From a virus, in IMG/VR virus record IMGVR_UViG_3300022540_000428, positions 1 through 47,727 of that record: 47,727 bases of DNA; one strand, 5' to 3'. Shown here in pieces: positions 1-47,727 of the stretch (position 1 is the first letter of the stretch; every line of letters starts with the position of its first letter). The position numbers and the translations under genes were made by a program. Under the pieces are notes generated by a model. It was given only the letters and a program-made list of their open reading frames with translations, did not search any database and was not told the origin of the DNA.

Positions 1-122
1 TAGCAGTGAGGGTGTAGCAGTGAGGGTGTAGCAGTGAGGGTGTAGCAGTGAGGGTGTAACAGTGAGGGTGTAACAGTGAGGGTGTAACAGTGAGGGTGTA
101 GCAGTGAGGGTGTAGCAGTGAG
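1..122. repeat. 14-bp tandem repeat array (left end)
   Basis: Eight complete copies of TAGCAGTGAGGGTG run head to tail, followed by a 10-base partial copy at 113-122. Copies 1-4 and 8 are TAGCAG type; copies 5-7 carry the variant TAACAG. The array contains no gene and lies between the end of the leftward operon and, if the molecule is circular, the upstream region of the terminase operon. Candidate roles (inference) are terminase or replication-protein binding sites. The real copy number may be higher, because short-read assembly collapses such arrays. Confidence 0.97.
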
Positions 123-138
123 TTAACTCACTGCTACA
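111..138. repeat. 28-bp perfect palindrome at the array edge
   Basis: The last partial array unit is met by its own inverted copy, giving a perfect 28-bp palindrome centred on GTTAAC (arms TGTAGCAGTGAGTT and its complement). It begins seven bases beyond the stop of the last leftward gene. There is no T-run on either side, so it is a poor rho-independent terminator. It could form a cruciform or be a dyad binding site. Confidence 0.95.
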
Positions 139-144
139 TGTTTG

Positions 145-210
145 TTAAAAATAGCGATAAACTACATATATGGTTAATATCATCAATACATTAAAATAAT
201 TAAAGTCCAT
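145..210 (-). CDS. 21-aa membrane micro-protein
   Basis: This is the last, leftmost gene of the left operon. It encodes 21 residues and is mostly hydrophobic from about residue 7 to 18, enough for one short membrane segment. The start is set by GGAG six bases upstream of the ATG, lying within the last codons of the upstream gene. It starts one base after that gene's stop. No family is recognised. The short length makes it uncertain, but the ribosome site and spacing match its neighbours. Confidence 0.5.
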   Translation of the reverse strand: MDFNYFNVLMILTIYVVYRYF

Positions 211-2721: not shown

Positions 2722-2724
2722 TTT

Positions 2725-2838
2725 TTACCCCTTACTAATTACGATTAAAGCTATTACAAAACTAATAGCTAAACTTATTTTAATGACTTTTGAAAAGTCA
2801 AAACTCTTTTGTCCGTGCTTATGTTGGTAAATTTTCAT
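2725..2838 (-). CDS. 37-aa single-pass membrane protein
   Basis: First gene of the left operon. It has a polar, basic N-terminal part (MKIYQHKHGQKSFDFSK) followed by a hydrophobic stretch of about 15 residues (ISLAISFVIALIVIS), a clear single membrane segment. The ribosome site AAAGGAG lies six bases before the ATG, one of the best in the window. An extended -10 promoter sits about 30 bases upstream. Function unknown; small early membrane proteins in phages often act in superinfection exclusion or host inhibition (general knowledge, not shown here). Confidence 0.72.
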   Translation of the reverse strand: MKIYQHKHGQKSFDFSKVIKISLAISFVIALIVISKG

Positions 2839-2866
2839 CTCTGACTCCTTTGTTTTGAGATGAGTA

Positions 2867-2875
2867 ATTATATCA
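2867..2875 (-). promoter_or_regulatory. extended -10 promoter of the left operon
   Basis: On the minus strand the sequence TGATATAAT is a consensus extended -10 element (TGnTATAAT), 29 bases before the start codon at 2838. No good -35 is present. The -35 area instead holds two near-direct copies of TTTTAGTT (within 2877-2900), related to motifs near the late promoter. Confidence 0.55.
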
Positions 2876-3295
2876 TAAATTTAACTAAAATAAACTAAAA
2901 TTTATCTATTTTTACCATATTTTTTTATTGATATTGAGTATCAACTTGACAAGCTTATTGATAACAGCTCTCAATAATTACGATTTGGGTTTTTTTGAGT
3001 TGTCGCCTTAATAGAAGGTTAGTAGAAAACCCCCCGATTTTTTTATTTTTTTCAAGTCATAGTGACTGACCGGCGACCGGCGACCGGCGACCGGCGACCG
3101 CACCCTAAAATTTTTTTTTTTGTAGAGGTGTCACGGTTTTTTTATAGTTACTTTTTAATTTTATTTATAGTTTATTTATCGTTTTATTATTTATTTTTAT
3201 TGGTTAATATCTTACAACCACTCCGCAACCACCTTGATACCACCTTGATACCACAGGAGCTATTTATGTATCATCACCTGATACATAAATAACAA
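2876..3295. other. noncoding control region with dyads and homopolymer runs
   Basis: This 420-base stretch holds no convincing gene. It contains two dyads, TTGATA/TATCAA near 2936-2953 and TTATTGA/TCAATAA near 2959-2981. It also has a C6 run, T7 runs, GTCA-TAG-TGAC just before the GACCGGC array, and a T11 run after it. This density of dyads and low-complexity tracts suggests a regulatory or replication/packaging region rather than coding DNA. Confidence 0.6.
3068..3100. repeat. GC-rich heptamer array GACCGGC
   Basis: Four complete head-to-tail copies of GACCGGC and a partial fifth (GACCG). In a genome that is otherwise strongly AT-rich this is by far the most GC-rich patch. It is flanked by T-runs on both sides and lies outside genes. 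Possible roles are a protein-binding array, a helicase or polymerase pause, or a slipped-strand expansion. Confidence 0.95.
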
Positions 3296-3772: not shown

Positions 3773-4330
3773 TTAAGGGCTTTTTTTAAGGAGTCTTTTT
3801 AACTGAGCTTTATACTCAACAGTAAACCCACGCTTACCACCTTTACCTCTGAAGAATGTAGTAACAAACTCCTTTTCTGCCTTAGCTTGTGTGAACATAT
3901 ATGAAGGTGTGATTGAGAAATGAGGGAGTAGTGGGAATCGTTCTTTACCTACTCTTGTAAGAACAAATGTATTACGTTTACTTTTACCTTTAATAAAAGC
4001 ATTTCTCATCTTCTTACTTTTCTTTTGTATCTTATAAGATACACCACCTGATTTTAACTCTTTAGCATAAAATTCATTTAAGTTAATAGGGGTTGAGTGC
4101 ATCTTAAAAACATACACTGATTTCCCCACATTTGCACGTTTAATTTTAACCTTTTTTTTAAGGTCACTTGTTCTAAGATTCCACGCACTTTTAGCTTTAA
4201 GTAAAGAAGCTGTTGTTGCAACACCACCGGCTTTATTCATACTAAACGCAACAGCTTTAGGGTTATCTCTATGAAAGTTCTTAAACTTACGAATCAAAGG
4301 TTCAATGCCTTTGACTTTTAAGATAAACAC
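3773..4330 (-). CDS. gpZ-like minor tail (tail completion) protein
   Basis: A 185-residue, very basic protein. The N-terminal section, with KAVAFSMNKAGGVATTASLL followed by an RTSDLKKKVKIKRAN-like segment, resembles the prophage minor tail protein Z family. Members of that family finish the head-proximal end of siphophage tails. In lambda-like phages this gene sits between head connectors and the tail tube; here it is some 36 kb away in linear coordinates (about 11 kb across the circular join), in a regulatory-type block. The similarity is by recognition only, so confidence is moderate. Confidence 0.6.
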   Translation of the reverse strand: MFILKVKGIEPLIRKFKNFHRDNPKAVAFSMNKAGGVATTASLLKAKSAWNLRTSDLKKKVKIKRANVGKSVYVFKMHSTPINLNEFYAKELKSGGVSYKIQKKSKKMRNAFIKGKSKRNTFVLTRVGKERFPLLPHFSITPSYMFTQAKAEKEFVTTFFRGKGGKRGFTVEYKAQLKRLLKKSP

Positions 4331-4912: not shown

Positions 4913-4942
4913 ATTTCATCCTTAATAGGTATATTTTATAAA

Positions 4943-4949
4943 ACTATAC
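4943..4949 (-). promoter_or_regulatory. extended -10 promoter of the RHH gene
   Basis: On the minus strand TATAGT is preceded by TGG, an extended -10 element 31 bases before the start codon at 4912. The region where a -35 would lie coincides with the first TACTCCA boxes, so a protein bound there would block or recruit RNA polymerase. Confidence 0.45.
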
Positions 4950-4963
4950 CACATATATACTTA

Positions 4964-5222
4964 TACTCCACGTACTCCATTGTACTCCAACGTGTACTCC
5001 AACGACAAAGCCCGTCCACACCGTCTGTACTCCATATACTCCACCTTTTTTATATAATATAAAATAAAAAGTAAGTAGGTATAGTATAGTATAGTAAGGT
5101 ATAATATAATAACATACAAGTGGTGGGTATATAGAAAGTGGAAGAGTATTGGAGTTTTTGGAGTATCGACGCTGAGAGCGTGGTTTGCAGATGGAGTACA
5201 ATAATCCGTACTCCGGAGTACG
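4964..5222. repeat. iteron/operator region: TACTCCA boxes flanking an AT-rich core
   Basis: Six copies of TACTCCA face one way (4964, 4973, 4983, 4995, 5028, 5037). After an AT-rich core (5044-5110) come inverted copies TGGAGTA at 5159 and 5192, a near copy at 5150, and a perfect 16-bp palindrome CGTACTCCGGAGTACG at 5207-5222. The palindrome abuts the stop codon of the primase-helicase gene. Clusters of short iterons around an easily melted AT core are the classic form of a replication origin. The same arrangement could be a multi-site operator for the RHH gene. No convincing protein is encoded here. Confidence 0.8.
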
Positions 5223-39685: not shown

Positions 39686-39997
39686 TTATGTTAAGTTTGG
39701 AGTAATAACTGCTTCAACAAAAACATAGTCAACAGTCAAATTTCCACTCTCAATATTCATATCAGATTTAATAAACCTGAGTGCTTGATCGTTTTTACTT
39801 GATGCTTTAACAATTCTGTTTATCAAAGTTTCATTACCCTCTTTTGTTTGAATTACAAATGTAACCGTTCTGCTAAATGAGTTCCTATTTGCTTCACGAT
39901 AAGCAACAAAAACATGTGGAGCTTCATCTTCATATTGAATAATATCAAGTAATGCTTCTTTTGCTTCTGATTCTAAGCAAAAAATTAAGTCACTCAT
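39686..39997 (-). CDS. tail terminator-like or minor connector protein
   Basis: A 103-residue protein (EAPHVFVAYREANRNSFSRT; FVIQTKEGNETLINRIVKAS). Its position directly before the tail tube and its size suit a tail terminator (lambda gpU place). It overlaps the upstream gene by four bases. Assigned by position. Confidence 0.6.
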   Translation of the reverse strand: MSDLIFCLESEAKEALLDIIQYEDEAPHVFVAYREANRNSFSRTVTFVIQTKEGNETLINRIVKASSKNDQALRFIKSDMNIESGNLTVDYVFVEAVITPNLT

Positions 39998-40296
39998 CTC
40001 ATACCTTTCCGTAAAATAACGTTGAAGATGAGTTTTTCCTCATCGGGAATAAAATCAACCACACCATACTTAACCTCATTAATCATGAAGTAACCATCCT
40101 TTGACAAGGTTGGTAAATCATCATGTTTCACAATGAGTTTTCGTAATACTGAATCACCTAAACCACTCTCTTCATCAAAGAATTGAACAGTTACCGGTGT
40201 TGAGGTTTTACCAAGATGATAAATCACCTCAACAGCAAATTCATCTATGTTAAAAAACACATCTAAATCTAGTTTTAATTGATCTTTAAAACTCAT
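39994..40296 (-). CDS. head-tail connector (gpFII-like)
   Basis: A 100-residue protein. The pattern DVFFNIDEFAVEVIYHLG, then a KHDDLPTLSKDGYFMINEVK segment and VVDFIPDEEKLIFNVILR, matches lambda gpFII-type joining proteins. These complete the head neck and receive the tail. Confidence 0.75.
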   Translation of the reverse strand: MSFKDQLKLDLDVFFNIDEFAVEVIYHLGKTSTPVTVQFFDEESGLGDSVLRKLIVKHDDLPTLSKDGYFMINEVKYGVVDFIPDEEKLIFNVILRKGMR

Positions 40297-44668: not shown

Positions 44669-46486
44669 TTAATATTCATCTAACCATGATTTAGGTTTCT
44701 TTTTTTCCTCAACTTTCTTTACCGGATTACCAATATAAAGAATAGGTCTGATAAGCTCATCTACCTTAATATCCAAGATCGTCAATGTTGCAATAGCATA
44801 CACCATTGTATCGATTGCTTCATTACGTGTACGCACCTTAACATACTGACCTTTCCCATCCCTCTTTTCTGCTGTCAACATCTTGAAGAATTTATCATCA
44901 ATTACATCAAGCTTTGGAAAGTACACATAATTATAACCCTCTGTGACAATTCCCAATCGTGCATAGAAATCATCCTTAATTGTTGTAGTTCCAACTATGA
45001 AGAGGTTTGAATCGTGCATTGATAAGTTTTTCAACTGCTTGTTTACAACCGGTGCGTTTAATGTTGATGCACCCTTAATGCCAAATATCTTATTTGGTAA
45101 ACGGTGCTTAACATATTCGTAAACTGCTTTGGTTCTGTGACCACCGGTATCTATTGATGATCCAACTACTTTCATTTTGAAACCGTCAACACGTGTGTAA
45201 ACCCTGTTGACAAGGAAGTTGTCAAGTGCTTTCTTAGTGGCATCGTACTGTGGATCACCTGCAATCACCTTATAGTCAATAACATAGAGGTTTCCTTTAT
45301 GTCCGTGACCAAGTACAAGTACCTCAAATCTATCATCCTGAGTGTCAATACCTGCTGTCAATACCATAGTCTCATTAGGCACTTCAGCACCATAGTGTGT
45401 TGTTCTCTCATCAGGATTTACAATATCAACACCATCGAGTTGTGGTTTAAATGGTCTTGCTTGTCTAGTGTTAACCCATGTTTGCATCATACGTGGATCA
45501 CCGCGTTTTAATATCTTAGTAGCTTTCAAAAATTCTCTTGCTATCTCATCCCATGATAACCACCCAACAGGTGATAAGAATGATGGAACTAAATATCCTC
45601 TATGTATGTGACCCTCATTCTGAGGAATCCATTTAGCTCCGTTCTCTTCTTTCATCATCCATGTTTTTTTATGGTCAGGAATGAGTGTACCACAATGCTT
45701 ACATCCATATTTGACTTCTGAAGTTAGTATGTAGTCCTCATGCGTAAAGTCAAATCGATCCCATTCAAAGTTAATAAGTTCCTTACATTCAGGACATGGC
45801 ATAAAGTATTCGCGTTGATCACTATCTTCATATTCTTTTTCAATATTGGAATTACCTTCAATAGTTGGAGTAGAGTTTATATAGATCATCTTGTTTGAAA
45901 AAGCATCTGCTCTTGCTTTACCAAGAGTCATTACATTACCTTCACCAAACTCACCAAAACCATCAACATCATCCAAAATAACAAGTCTAGCTGAGAAGGA
46001 ACGAAAAGATGAAGTAGAGTTTGACCAACCTAATGTTACACCACCACCTGAAACATTCTTTGTAAACATATTACCAATTTCATCTTTACTTTTACCACCT
46101 ATAACTTTCTTCCTAAGATGAGGTATAGCTCTTATTGCCGGTGTGAATCTACGTGTAGATGTACCCTTAGCAAGTGTTTCAGTTGGTACGATATAGAGGA
46201 TAGGACATGGGTATAGATCAAGGTATGTCAACATAACGTTGTCACCTGCTGTTGACAGTGCTAATTGTGTACCCTTCATAACCTTAACTTGTGAGCATGG
46301 TGACATTGGTGAACATGAATCTTGTATTTCCTTAACAAACGGTACTCTTGCTGTACGATACTTACCTGCTTCTGCTGAAGCTTCTGTTGTCAAGATCCTA
46401 AATTCATCCGCCCATTCACTTACTGTGAGTCGTGGATCAGGTTTAAGAGCGTTCATACACCCTATTATAAGAGGGTTAAGACTCAT
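44669..46486 (-). CDS. terL: terminase large subunit (lambda gpA family)
   Basis: A 605-residue packaging motor. The N-terminal ATPase has a gpA-type P-loop MKGTQLALSTAGDN (70-83) and Walker B RLVILDDVDGF (near 172). A CPEC...CKHC zinc site at about 230-262 is typical of gpA. The nuclease domain starts at TAGIDTQDDRFEV. Lambda-type terminases cut at cos sites, while other members use pac or make direct repeats. The repeat array upstream of the small-subunit gene is a candidate recognition site. Confidence 0.95.
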   Translation of the reverse strand: MSLNPLIIGCMNALKPDPRLTVSEWADEFRILTTEASAEAGKYRTARVPFVKEIQDSCSPMSPCSQVKVMKGTQLALSTAGDNVMLTYLDLYPCPILYIVPTETLAKGTSTRRFTPAIRAIPHLRKKVIGGKSKDEIGNMFTKNVSGGGVTLGWSNSTSSFRSFSARLVILDDVDGFGEFGEGNVMTLGKARADAFSNKMIYINSTPTIEGNSNIEKEYEDSDQREYFMPCPECKELINFEWDRFDFTHEDYILTSEVKYGCKHCGTLIPDHKKTWMMKEENGAKWIPQNEGHIHRGYLVPSFLSPVGWLSWDEIAREFLKATKILKRGDPRMMQTWVNTRQARPFKPQLDGVDIVNPDERTTHYGAEVPNETMVLTAGIDTQDDRFEVLVLGHGHKGNLYVIDYKVIAGDPQYDATKKALDNFLVNRVYTRVDGFKMKVVGSSIDTGGHRTKAVYEYVKHRLPNKIFGIKGASTLNAPVVNKQLKNLSMHDSNLFIVGTTTIKDDFYARLGIVTEGYNYVYFPKLDVIDDKFFKMLTAEKRDGKGQYVKVRTRNEAIDTMVYAIATLTILDIKVDELIRPILYIGNPVKKVEEKKKPKSWLDEY

Positions 46487-46787
46487 TTATAACTCTATGT
46501 GCTTCAGGTATCTCTTGTAATTTCTTAACAGTTATGACACCACTCTTAACCCCATATTGGGTTAGCTTTATAAGTGCATCTGTTGATAAGGTTCTTATAC
46601 CTAATTCACGCATAGCTTCTTCTAATCCATCATCAACTTTTTGTTGAATCTCTTTTGCTTCATTCTTAGTCATATCACTATGTGACTTAAACTCTTCTCT
46701 TGTTTTAGCTATTGCATAATCTAACGCATCAGCTATTTCAATATTACCATCAGCATTAAATTTTTCGTGTATCTCTATCCTATTCAT
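46476..46787 (-). CDS. hypothetical protein between the terminase subunits
   Basis: A 103-residue acidic helical protein. The start at 46787 (MNRIEIHEKFNADGNIEIAD) is preferred since AAAGG lies six bases upstream. Helical stretches KNEAKEIQQKVDDGLEEAMR and DALIKLTQYGVKSG. It overlaps both terminase genes by about ten bases, which suggests a role in the packaging complex. No family is recognised. Confidence 0.7.
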   Translation of the reverse strand: MNRIEIHEKFNADGNIEIADALDYAIAKTREEFKSHSDMTKNEAKEIQQKVDDGLEEAMRELGIRTLSTDALIKLTQYGVKSGVITVKKLQEIPEAHRVINES

Positions 46788-47286
46788 ATAAAACCTTTTC
46801 GTCACTTAAATACAGGAGAACTTGATTAAGCTCTTTGAACATAATCTCTTTAACTTCCTTTACATCTGTAGTGGATGCAAGATCACCTGCCAATCTTTCC
46901 GGTACTGCAAGAATCTGATCACGTACAACACGCATAACCGTAAATGCTTTTTGCTCAACCTCGTCACGTGGTACAAGTTCACCTTTTGCAACATCAACTT
47001 TTATCTTTGCTAACTCACCTTGATACTCTTGTAAGAAGATTTTTGTACTATTTATTGTCTTTGTAGATCCATCTTCATTCTGAGCATTAAACTTCTCACC
47101 ATTAGGTAATCGTTGTTTCATATTCTGCAACGCTTGTTTAACAGCTTCATATTCAAAAGACTTCTTTTTACCTTTAACTTCAGTATATGGTATCTTACCC
47201 TCTTTGACAAGTTTCCCTAAGTATTGTTTTGAGAAAGTGATACCGTCTTTTTCTTTTAGTTGACTGAGCACTTCTACCTGTGTCAT
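46780..47286 (-). CDS. terS: terminase small subunit
   Basis: A 168-residue protein. The N-terminal 55 residues (FSKQYLGKLVKEGKIPYTEV then KGKKKSFEYEAVKQALQ) form a winged helix of the Nu1/TerS type that binds the packaging site. The middle is helical (TKIFLQEYQGELAKIKVDVA) for oligomer formation, and the C-terminus contacts the large subunit. It is the first gene of the late operon, and noncoding DNA of about 390 bases plus the repeat array lie upstream. RBS AGGAGAAGCCC. Confidence 0.85.
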   Translation of the reverse strand: MTQVEVLSQLKEKDGITFSKQYLGKLVKEGKIPYTEVKGKKKSFEYEAVKQALQNMKQRLPNGEKFNAQNEDGSTKTINSTKIFLQEYQGELAKIKVDVAKGELVPRDEVEQKAFTVMRVVRDQILAVPERLAGDLASTTDVKEVKEIMFKELNQVLLYLSDEKVLYE

Positions 47287-47302: not shown

Positions 47303-47342
47303 TTAGTAAACCTATTATATCTCATTTGTTTACTAATTACAA
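47303..47342 (-). promoter_or_regulatory. late promoter with overlapping perfect dyad
   Basis: On the minus strand TTGTAA (47337-47342), 17 bases and TATAAT (47314-47319) form a strong sigma-70-type promoter about 30 bases before the small terminase gene. A perfect 9-base dyad, TTAGTAAAC at 47303-47311 and GTTTACTAA at 47328-47336, frames the -10 box and spacer. It is a good operator for a phage regulator. A related palindrome TTTACTAAAGTAAA lies at 47500-47513. Confidence 0.75.
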
Positions 47343-47672
47343 GTAGTTGATAATGATACCCAACAAATTATAAAGGTGTCTTATATAAAGGCTCTTATAT
47401 TAAAAACCTATTAGGATGCAATCTAAGGGCTCTTATATATAAAATATAGTTTAGATATTAAAAGCGTTTATTTAACCATCCTTAGATTAGACAGAAAGCT
47501 TTACTAAAGTAAACTAACCTTAAATTTCCAAAACAATGTGAAATTCGGGCTGTTGCCCGTAATATAAGCATAGGTTATCTAGGAGTACCTTTTGATTATT
47601 GTTATCATAATATAAGGGCTGTTATATTAAAGAATATAAAGAGTGTTATGTAACCTTACTTATTTTGAATCT
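47343..47672. promoter_or_regulatory. noncoding late control region with degenerate repeats
   Basis: About 330 bases without a gene. A degenerate unit AAGG(G)CTSTTATATTAA occurs at 47387, 47424 and 47613, with weaker copies at 47372 and 47634. A GC-rich hairpin CGGGC-TGTT-GCCCG lies at 47546-47559. A GGAGTAC box, as in the 5-kb region, occurs at 47582. The array starts right after. Such repeats are likely binding sites for a regulator, replication protein or terminase. Confidence 0.6.
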
Positions 47673-47727
47673 TAGCAGTGAGGGTGTAGCAGTGAGGGTG
47701 TAGCAGTGAGGGTGTAGCAGTGAGGGT
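47673..47727. repeat. 14-bp tandem repeat array (right end), identical to bases 1-55
   Basis: Three full copies and one 13-base copy of TAGCAGTGAGGGTG, in the same orientation as the left array. The 55 bases are identical to bases 1-55, so the window has an exact 55-base direct terminal repeat. De Bruijn assemblers leave exactly one k-mer of overlap on circular contigs and 55 is a common k, so this is most simply a circular or circularly permuted genome cut open inside the array. A true short direct terminal repeat is the alternative. Confidence 0.95.

Follow-up and report, generated by a model that had tools for sequence, protein, structure and literature searches.

Termination of DNA packaging in phage lambda needs cosQ in addition to cosN, and the binding sites of TerS lie in cosB (PMC4669245). 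Transcripts ended by Rho are shortened as far as a stable structure, and downstream of the 3′ ends that were observed there is an enrichment of rut-like features with more C than G (PMC12350095). Closest in layout to the locus described here is that of Thiohalocapsa phage LS06-2018-MD03 (OP947165; hereafter MD03), and the searched passages of its paper (PMC10370329) contain no mention of the tandem array that its record carries. Nothing relevant came from a literature search that combined tandem repeats, cos and terS.

The DNA analyzed here, referred to as the window, is a virus record of 47,727 bases with terminase genes of the lambda type (terL phrog_15, terS phrog_57). An earlier note on this DNA had reported a 14-bp repeat array and a perfect 28-bp palindrome, and TRF and a palindrome comparison found both in the sequence. 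The place that it gave for the array was also borne out: on one side the left operon ends, on the minus strand (last listed ORF 212–499), and on the other lies the minus-strand terS (46780–47286). The features of this junction are as follows.

1–126, minus strand: tandem array of a 14-bp unit, sense strand CACCCTCACTGCTA / CACCCTCACTGTTA, C-rich and G-poor on the transcribed strand of the left operon
111–138, no strand assigned: perfect 28-bp palindrome made with an inverted repeat copy; hairpin of −19.7 kcal/mol on the sense strand
145–210, minus strand: micro-ORF of 21 aa, MDFNYFNVLMILTIYVVYRYF, preceded by AGGAG; the left operon ends with this gene
44669–46486, minus strand: terminase large subunit (terL), phrog_15
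46780–47286, minus strand: terminase small subunit (terS), phrog_57
47314–47342, minus strand: promoter-like site TTGTAA-17-TATAAT before terS, a candidate late promoter
47547–47558, minus strand: hairpin of sequence GGGCAACAGCCC, a candidate for cosN, where the cut would be made; its distance to AAGGTACT is 33 bp
47584–47591, minus strand: AAGGTACT, a cosQ-like conserved element
47673–47727, minus strand: second copy of bases 1–55, probably an overlap left by assembly of a circular genome at k=55

Within the array, four TAGC units are followed by three TAAC units, one further TAGC unit and then TAGCAGTGAG, which merges into the inverted copy; TRF gave 8.7 copies with a 98% match. The sequence GCAGTGAG occurs 11 times in the window, every time at one of its two ends, against a chance expectation of 0.66, and the 28-bp palindrome is the longest in the window (the runner-up has 18 bp). 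An exact search of viral_contigs with the window array gave no match, nor did an Rfam search made in following up the array.

That the same 55 bases stand at both ends of the window is what would be seen if the virion DNA had real direct terminal repeats, and the earlier note speaks of a direct terminal repeat array. The identity holds; the physical terminal repeat very probably does not, according to a branching-vertex analysis. A common SPAdes k-mer length is 55, and 127 is also a k-mer length. If the assembled circle is drawn as a graph with k=55, no 55-mer branches, and the start point of the contig would therefore be arbitrary. With at least one extra TAGC unit (a block of five or more), window bases 1–55 become exactly the branching vertex. 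Since the contig starts exactly at this would-be vertex, the true TAGC block is probably longer than the assembled one, and 8.7 units is best taken as a lower bound. In MD03, 127 identical end bases lie inside its array, also at a branching vertex, and in relatives it is the cos-like element at which contigs end. A physical direct terminal repeat would be one that assembly leaves unexplained, and the 55-bp ends are not of that kind: they are most likely an assembler overlap (k=55) of a circular genome cut at an unresolved repeat, and true terminal repeats are highly improbable. Such arrays break short-read assemblies at a functional junction, so that phage contigs start or end there, and a “direct terminal repeat” completeness flag can be a k-mer overlap within a repeat.

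Upstream of terS, AAGGTACT (AGGTACT in G016) is followed after 29–33 bp by a GGG hairpin. This pair was found in the window, in the array-bearing relatives G006, G007, G016, L073 and MD03, and in L138 and L167, and it is at the same place in L123, L145 and L124. The contig of the nearest relative ends at GGCAACAGCCC, which is homologous to GGGCAACAGCCC of the window. The contigs L114, L123, L145 and L124 begin only a few bases away from the GGG, and L136 and L129 probably do so too; a staggered cut producing linear ends would be expected to place contig ends here. From their position, their spacing and these contig ends, we infer that the two elements are likely counterparts of cosQ and cosN, and that the packaging cut of the window is probably at 47547–47558, 114 bp from the array on its terS side. 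The earlier note had proposed the array for packaging. It does lie beside a probable packaging site; as the site of the physical ends it was rejected, and with that as the cos site itself, because the contig ends and the terminase-linked conservation are both 114 bp away, at the cos-like element. Between that element and terS, at 47369–47440, the window has three near-copies of AAAGGCTCTTATAT, possible TerS-binding (cosB) sites. The conserved element gives this phage group a packaging site that can be tested.

A search of related phages for arrays at the same place, which the earlier note had called for, found six with an array between the left operon and terS. These are listed below; the relatives other than MD03 are metagenome contigs or MAG scaffolds, MD03 is itself metagenome-assembled, and array lengths are lower bounds wherever a contig breaks.

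G001: 19-bp unit, with six copies where the contig begins
MD03: 26-bp unit, a stretch of 577 bp with about 22 units, and additional copies where the record begins
G006: 9-bp units (21 copies) with 16- and 33-bp repeats, internal to the contig and so assembled through
G007: 16-bp unit, 10.8 and 11.5 copies at its two contig ends
G016: 36-bp unit, 2.4 copies
L073: 14/7-bp repeats on a MAG scaffold labelled Epsilonproteobacteria, which starts within the array

The unit lengths over the seven phages are thus 9, 14, 14, 16, 19, 26 and 36 bp, and the unit sequences are unrelated. Even the window and G001, with TerL 86% and TerS 56% identical, have no array unit in common. On its operon side the G006 array, like that of the window, has a palindrome formed by an inverted unit, here of a different sequence. 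No conservation of the unit was found across the arrays beyond a six-base core, ACWGCW, which is present in six of the seven at about one per unit and is missing from the main 9-mer of G006, AACACTCTC. This degree of sharing was reached by 6 of 300 shuffles, or by 1 of 300 when L073 was left out, an exclusion chosen after the data had been seen. The shared core hints at sequence-specific recognition.

All of the array phages that could be scored have a DNA polymerase module and no integrase (L073 is too short to tell), and they appear to be a strictly lytic-looking group. Among 18 further TerL relatives searched for the polymerase module, only the array-bearing G016 has it. The temperate relatives L138/G017 and L167/G018 (terL 47% and 39%) have the cos-like element and no array; G017 and G018 carry an integrase and are without the polymerase module. 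Since the arrays occur with the polymerase and without an integrase, and the cos-like element is also found in array-less temperate relatives, the array follows the virulent lineage and not the packaging site. G008 has the polymerase module and terL, and its contig showed no array; it counts neither for nor against this, as the contig breaks off close to terS at one end and near the left-operon end at the other and so is missing the stretch between them. In more distant polymerase relatives with phrog_15 terminases, seven of which are 51–67 kb long, no array was found near terL, with about 1.5 kb upstream searched. G011 (IMGVR_UViG_3300037440_000207), whose polymerase is distant, was set aside because it has no phrog_15 terminase and its arrays are at several places; these are large 9-bp GCACGAGTT arrays at 1–156, 2848–3264 and 39706–40138.

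Along the direction of transcription, the shared order is left operon, micro-ORF, hairpin without a U-tract, array, cos-like element, late promoter and terS. The last gene before the hairpin is a hydrophobic micro-ORF of 19–23 aa in the window, G001 (MYDFNYFTFVIMGIIYLIFTYV), G006, G007 and G016, and is absent in MD03; its stop codon falls just before or inside the hairpin in the window, G001, G006 and G007. Farther along the window, the left operon encodes, at 3773–4330 on the minus strand, a protein with a Minor_tail_Z (PF06763) match, which is kept in G001, G006, G007, G008 and G016. The intergenic region after the primase gene (4913–5222) has repeated TACTCCA and, on the sense strand, a C>G bubble that only one other in the window surpasses in strength.

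Strand composition is kept where the unit is not. In six of the seven phages C is abundant and G scarce on the coding-sense strand of the array, the C/G ratios being 6.3 in the window, 8.0 in G001, 3.4 in MD03, 6.8 in G006, 5.8 in G007, 3.1 in G016 and 1.1 in L073; this same-strand bias rests on six to seven arrays, which is few, and the window and G001 are close kin. Coding strands have G in excess of C by about +0.2. In the window, G001, MD03, G006 and G007, no 78-nt stretch elsewhere on either strand of the genome exceeds the array in its surplus of C over G, although MD03 and G007 each have another stretch that equals it. Under a rut rule like that of RhoTermPredict (PMC6407284), 75–100% of array windows pass, against 2–9% of genome windows. 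As Rho-dependent terminators do, the arrays offer at least 70–80 nt of unstructured RNA with C in excess of G and spaced C residues, weakly so in L073. YC dinucleotides, a preferred contact of Rho, are enriched in the window, G001 and G006; they are not in MD03, G007 and G016, whose arrays are AC-rich rather than pyrimidine-rich.

A hairpin without a U-tract directly abuts the operon side of the array in all five genomes examined for it (the window, G001, MD03, G006 and G007). Compared with composition shuffles it is clearly stronger in the window (−19.7 vs. a mean of −7.8), G001 (−14.3 vs. −5.4) and G007 (−12.4 vs. −6.3), only modestly stronger in G006 and no stronger in MD03. An intrinsic terminator was rejected, since the U-tract is missing after the hairpin on the minus strand, where the array comes next, and a T-rich tail is found on the plus strand only.

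Untranslated sequence with a hairpin and then unstructured RNA rich in C over G is the pattern of Rho-dependent 3′ ends (PMC6407284, PMC12350095). We therefore tentatively read the array as a Rho-type terminator and 3′-end zone of the left operon that insulates the cos-like element and the late genes, at a probability of roughly 0.4. RNA polymerase that had passed the last small gene would transcribe the strong hairpin and then a long, C-rich, G-poor RNA free of structure and of ribosomes. On this RNA the host terminator Rho could load, transcription would halt ahead of cos and the late genes, and exonucleases would then shorten the transcript as far as the hairpin. Such a sequence could easily be made and lengthened by tandem duplication, and in the terminator model the unit could be replaced in each lineage because composition matters more than exact sequence. 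What keeps the estimate at this level is that three of the arrays show no YC enrichment and that all but one of the seven contain ACWGCW. If the model is true, tandem duplication is how these phages make their Rho sites, with free exchange of the unit, and their arrays are a natural test of composition versus sequence in Rho recognition.

The same core is what would be expected if the arrays were sequence-specific iterons, in which a phage or host protein binds one ACWGCW per unit at a regulatory or replication site of the virulent lineage, and the association of the arrays with the polymerase module in this terminase group (only G016 among the 18 further TerL relatives) fits such a role. We regard iterons as rather unlikely, since even the window and G001 have units of different length and sequence, unlike ordinary iterons, the main 9-mer of G006 is without the core, no ParA match was found, and a tblastn comparison revealed no small DNA-binding protein of the window that recurs across the array phages. 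A GC-skew switch at the array is also missing: the skew follows gene direction only, and the proposal of the earlier note that the array is an origin thus gained no support, though an absent skew signal does not exclude one. A better candidate for the replication origin is the 570-bp intergenic region at ~2722–3295 in the left operon. That region (2722–3295) has a GACCGGC heptad array (4.7 copies) and AT-rich repeats, and its DNA is about 75% similar to G001. Two other DNA-level roles were rejected: a hairpin telomere, as no match to the protelomerase family (PF16684) was found, in keeping with the view of the earlier note that the array is not an inverted telomere, and a phage-plasmid partition site of the ParA-dependent kind, as there was no match to PF13614 (ParA-type).

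Position alone would suit an accessory packaging element, as the array is on the cosQ side, 114 bp from candidate cosN; the packaged genome would carry it at its right end, just upstream of cosQ/cosN, where it might help terminase to stop at the second cos. This appears unlikely given that G017/L138 and G018/L167 have the cosQ/cosN-like element without an array, and that arrays without a common unit go with TerS proteins 56% identical in the window and G001. Fast unit turnover, variant units in blocks and the mixed unit types of G006 and MD03 are instead what a neutral or selfish minisatellite would show, generated by slippage and recombination near cohesive ends in a merely tolerant gap; the same strand composition in six of seven arrays, the hairpin cap and the same place every time make this explanation decidedly doubtful. 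Finally, the arrays may be an undescribed genome-end element of one virulent lineage, in which the place, the strand composition, the hairpin cap and the six-base core are kept and the unit is replaced, and which would act on DNA (in packaging termination, replication or late-gene timing) and not as an ordinary terminator. This we consider possible, if somewhat unlikely.

Overall, the locus resembles Rho-dependent terminators with rut sites in its C-rich, G-poor, unstructured and untranslated RNA after the last gene and in the stable hairpin just upstream without a U-tract. It differs in that the arrays are tandem repeats whose unit changes with each phage, YC contacts are not enriched in three of six arrays, and Rho action here is predicted. 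It also resembles the lambda-type cos (cosQ-cosN-cosB) before terS, in its phrog_57 and phrog_15 genes, in the conserved element with a GC hairpin at 29–33 bp and in the contig ends, although the element so likened neighbors the array and is not the array. MD03 differs in a terL only 22% identical, an unrelated unit and a weak hairpin, but it shares the three-operon layout, a 26-bp array of more than 20 units in the same place, the AAGGTACT element between array and terS, and an end overlap, of 127 bp.
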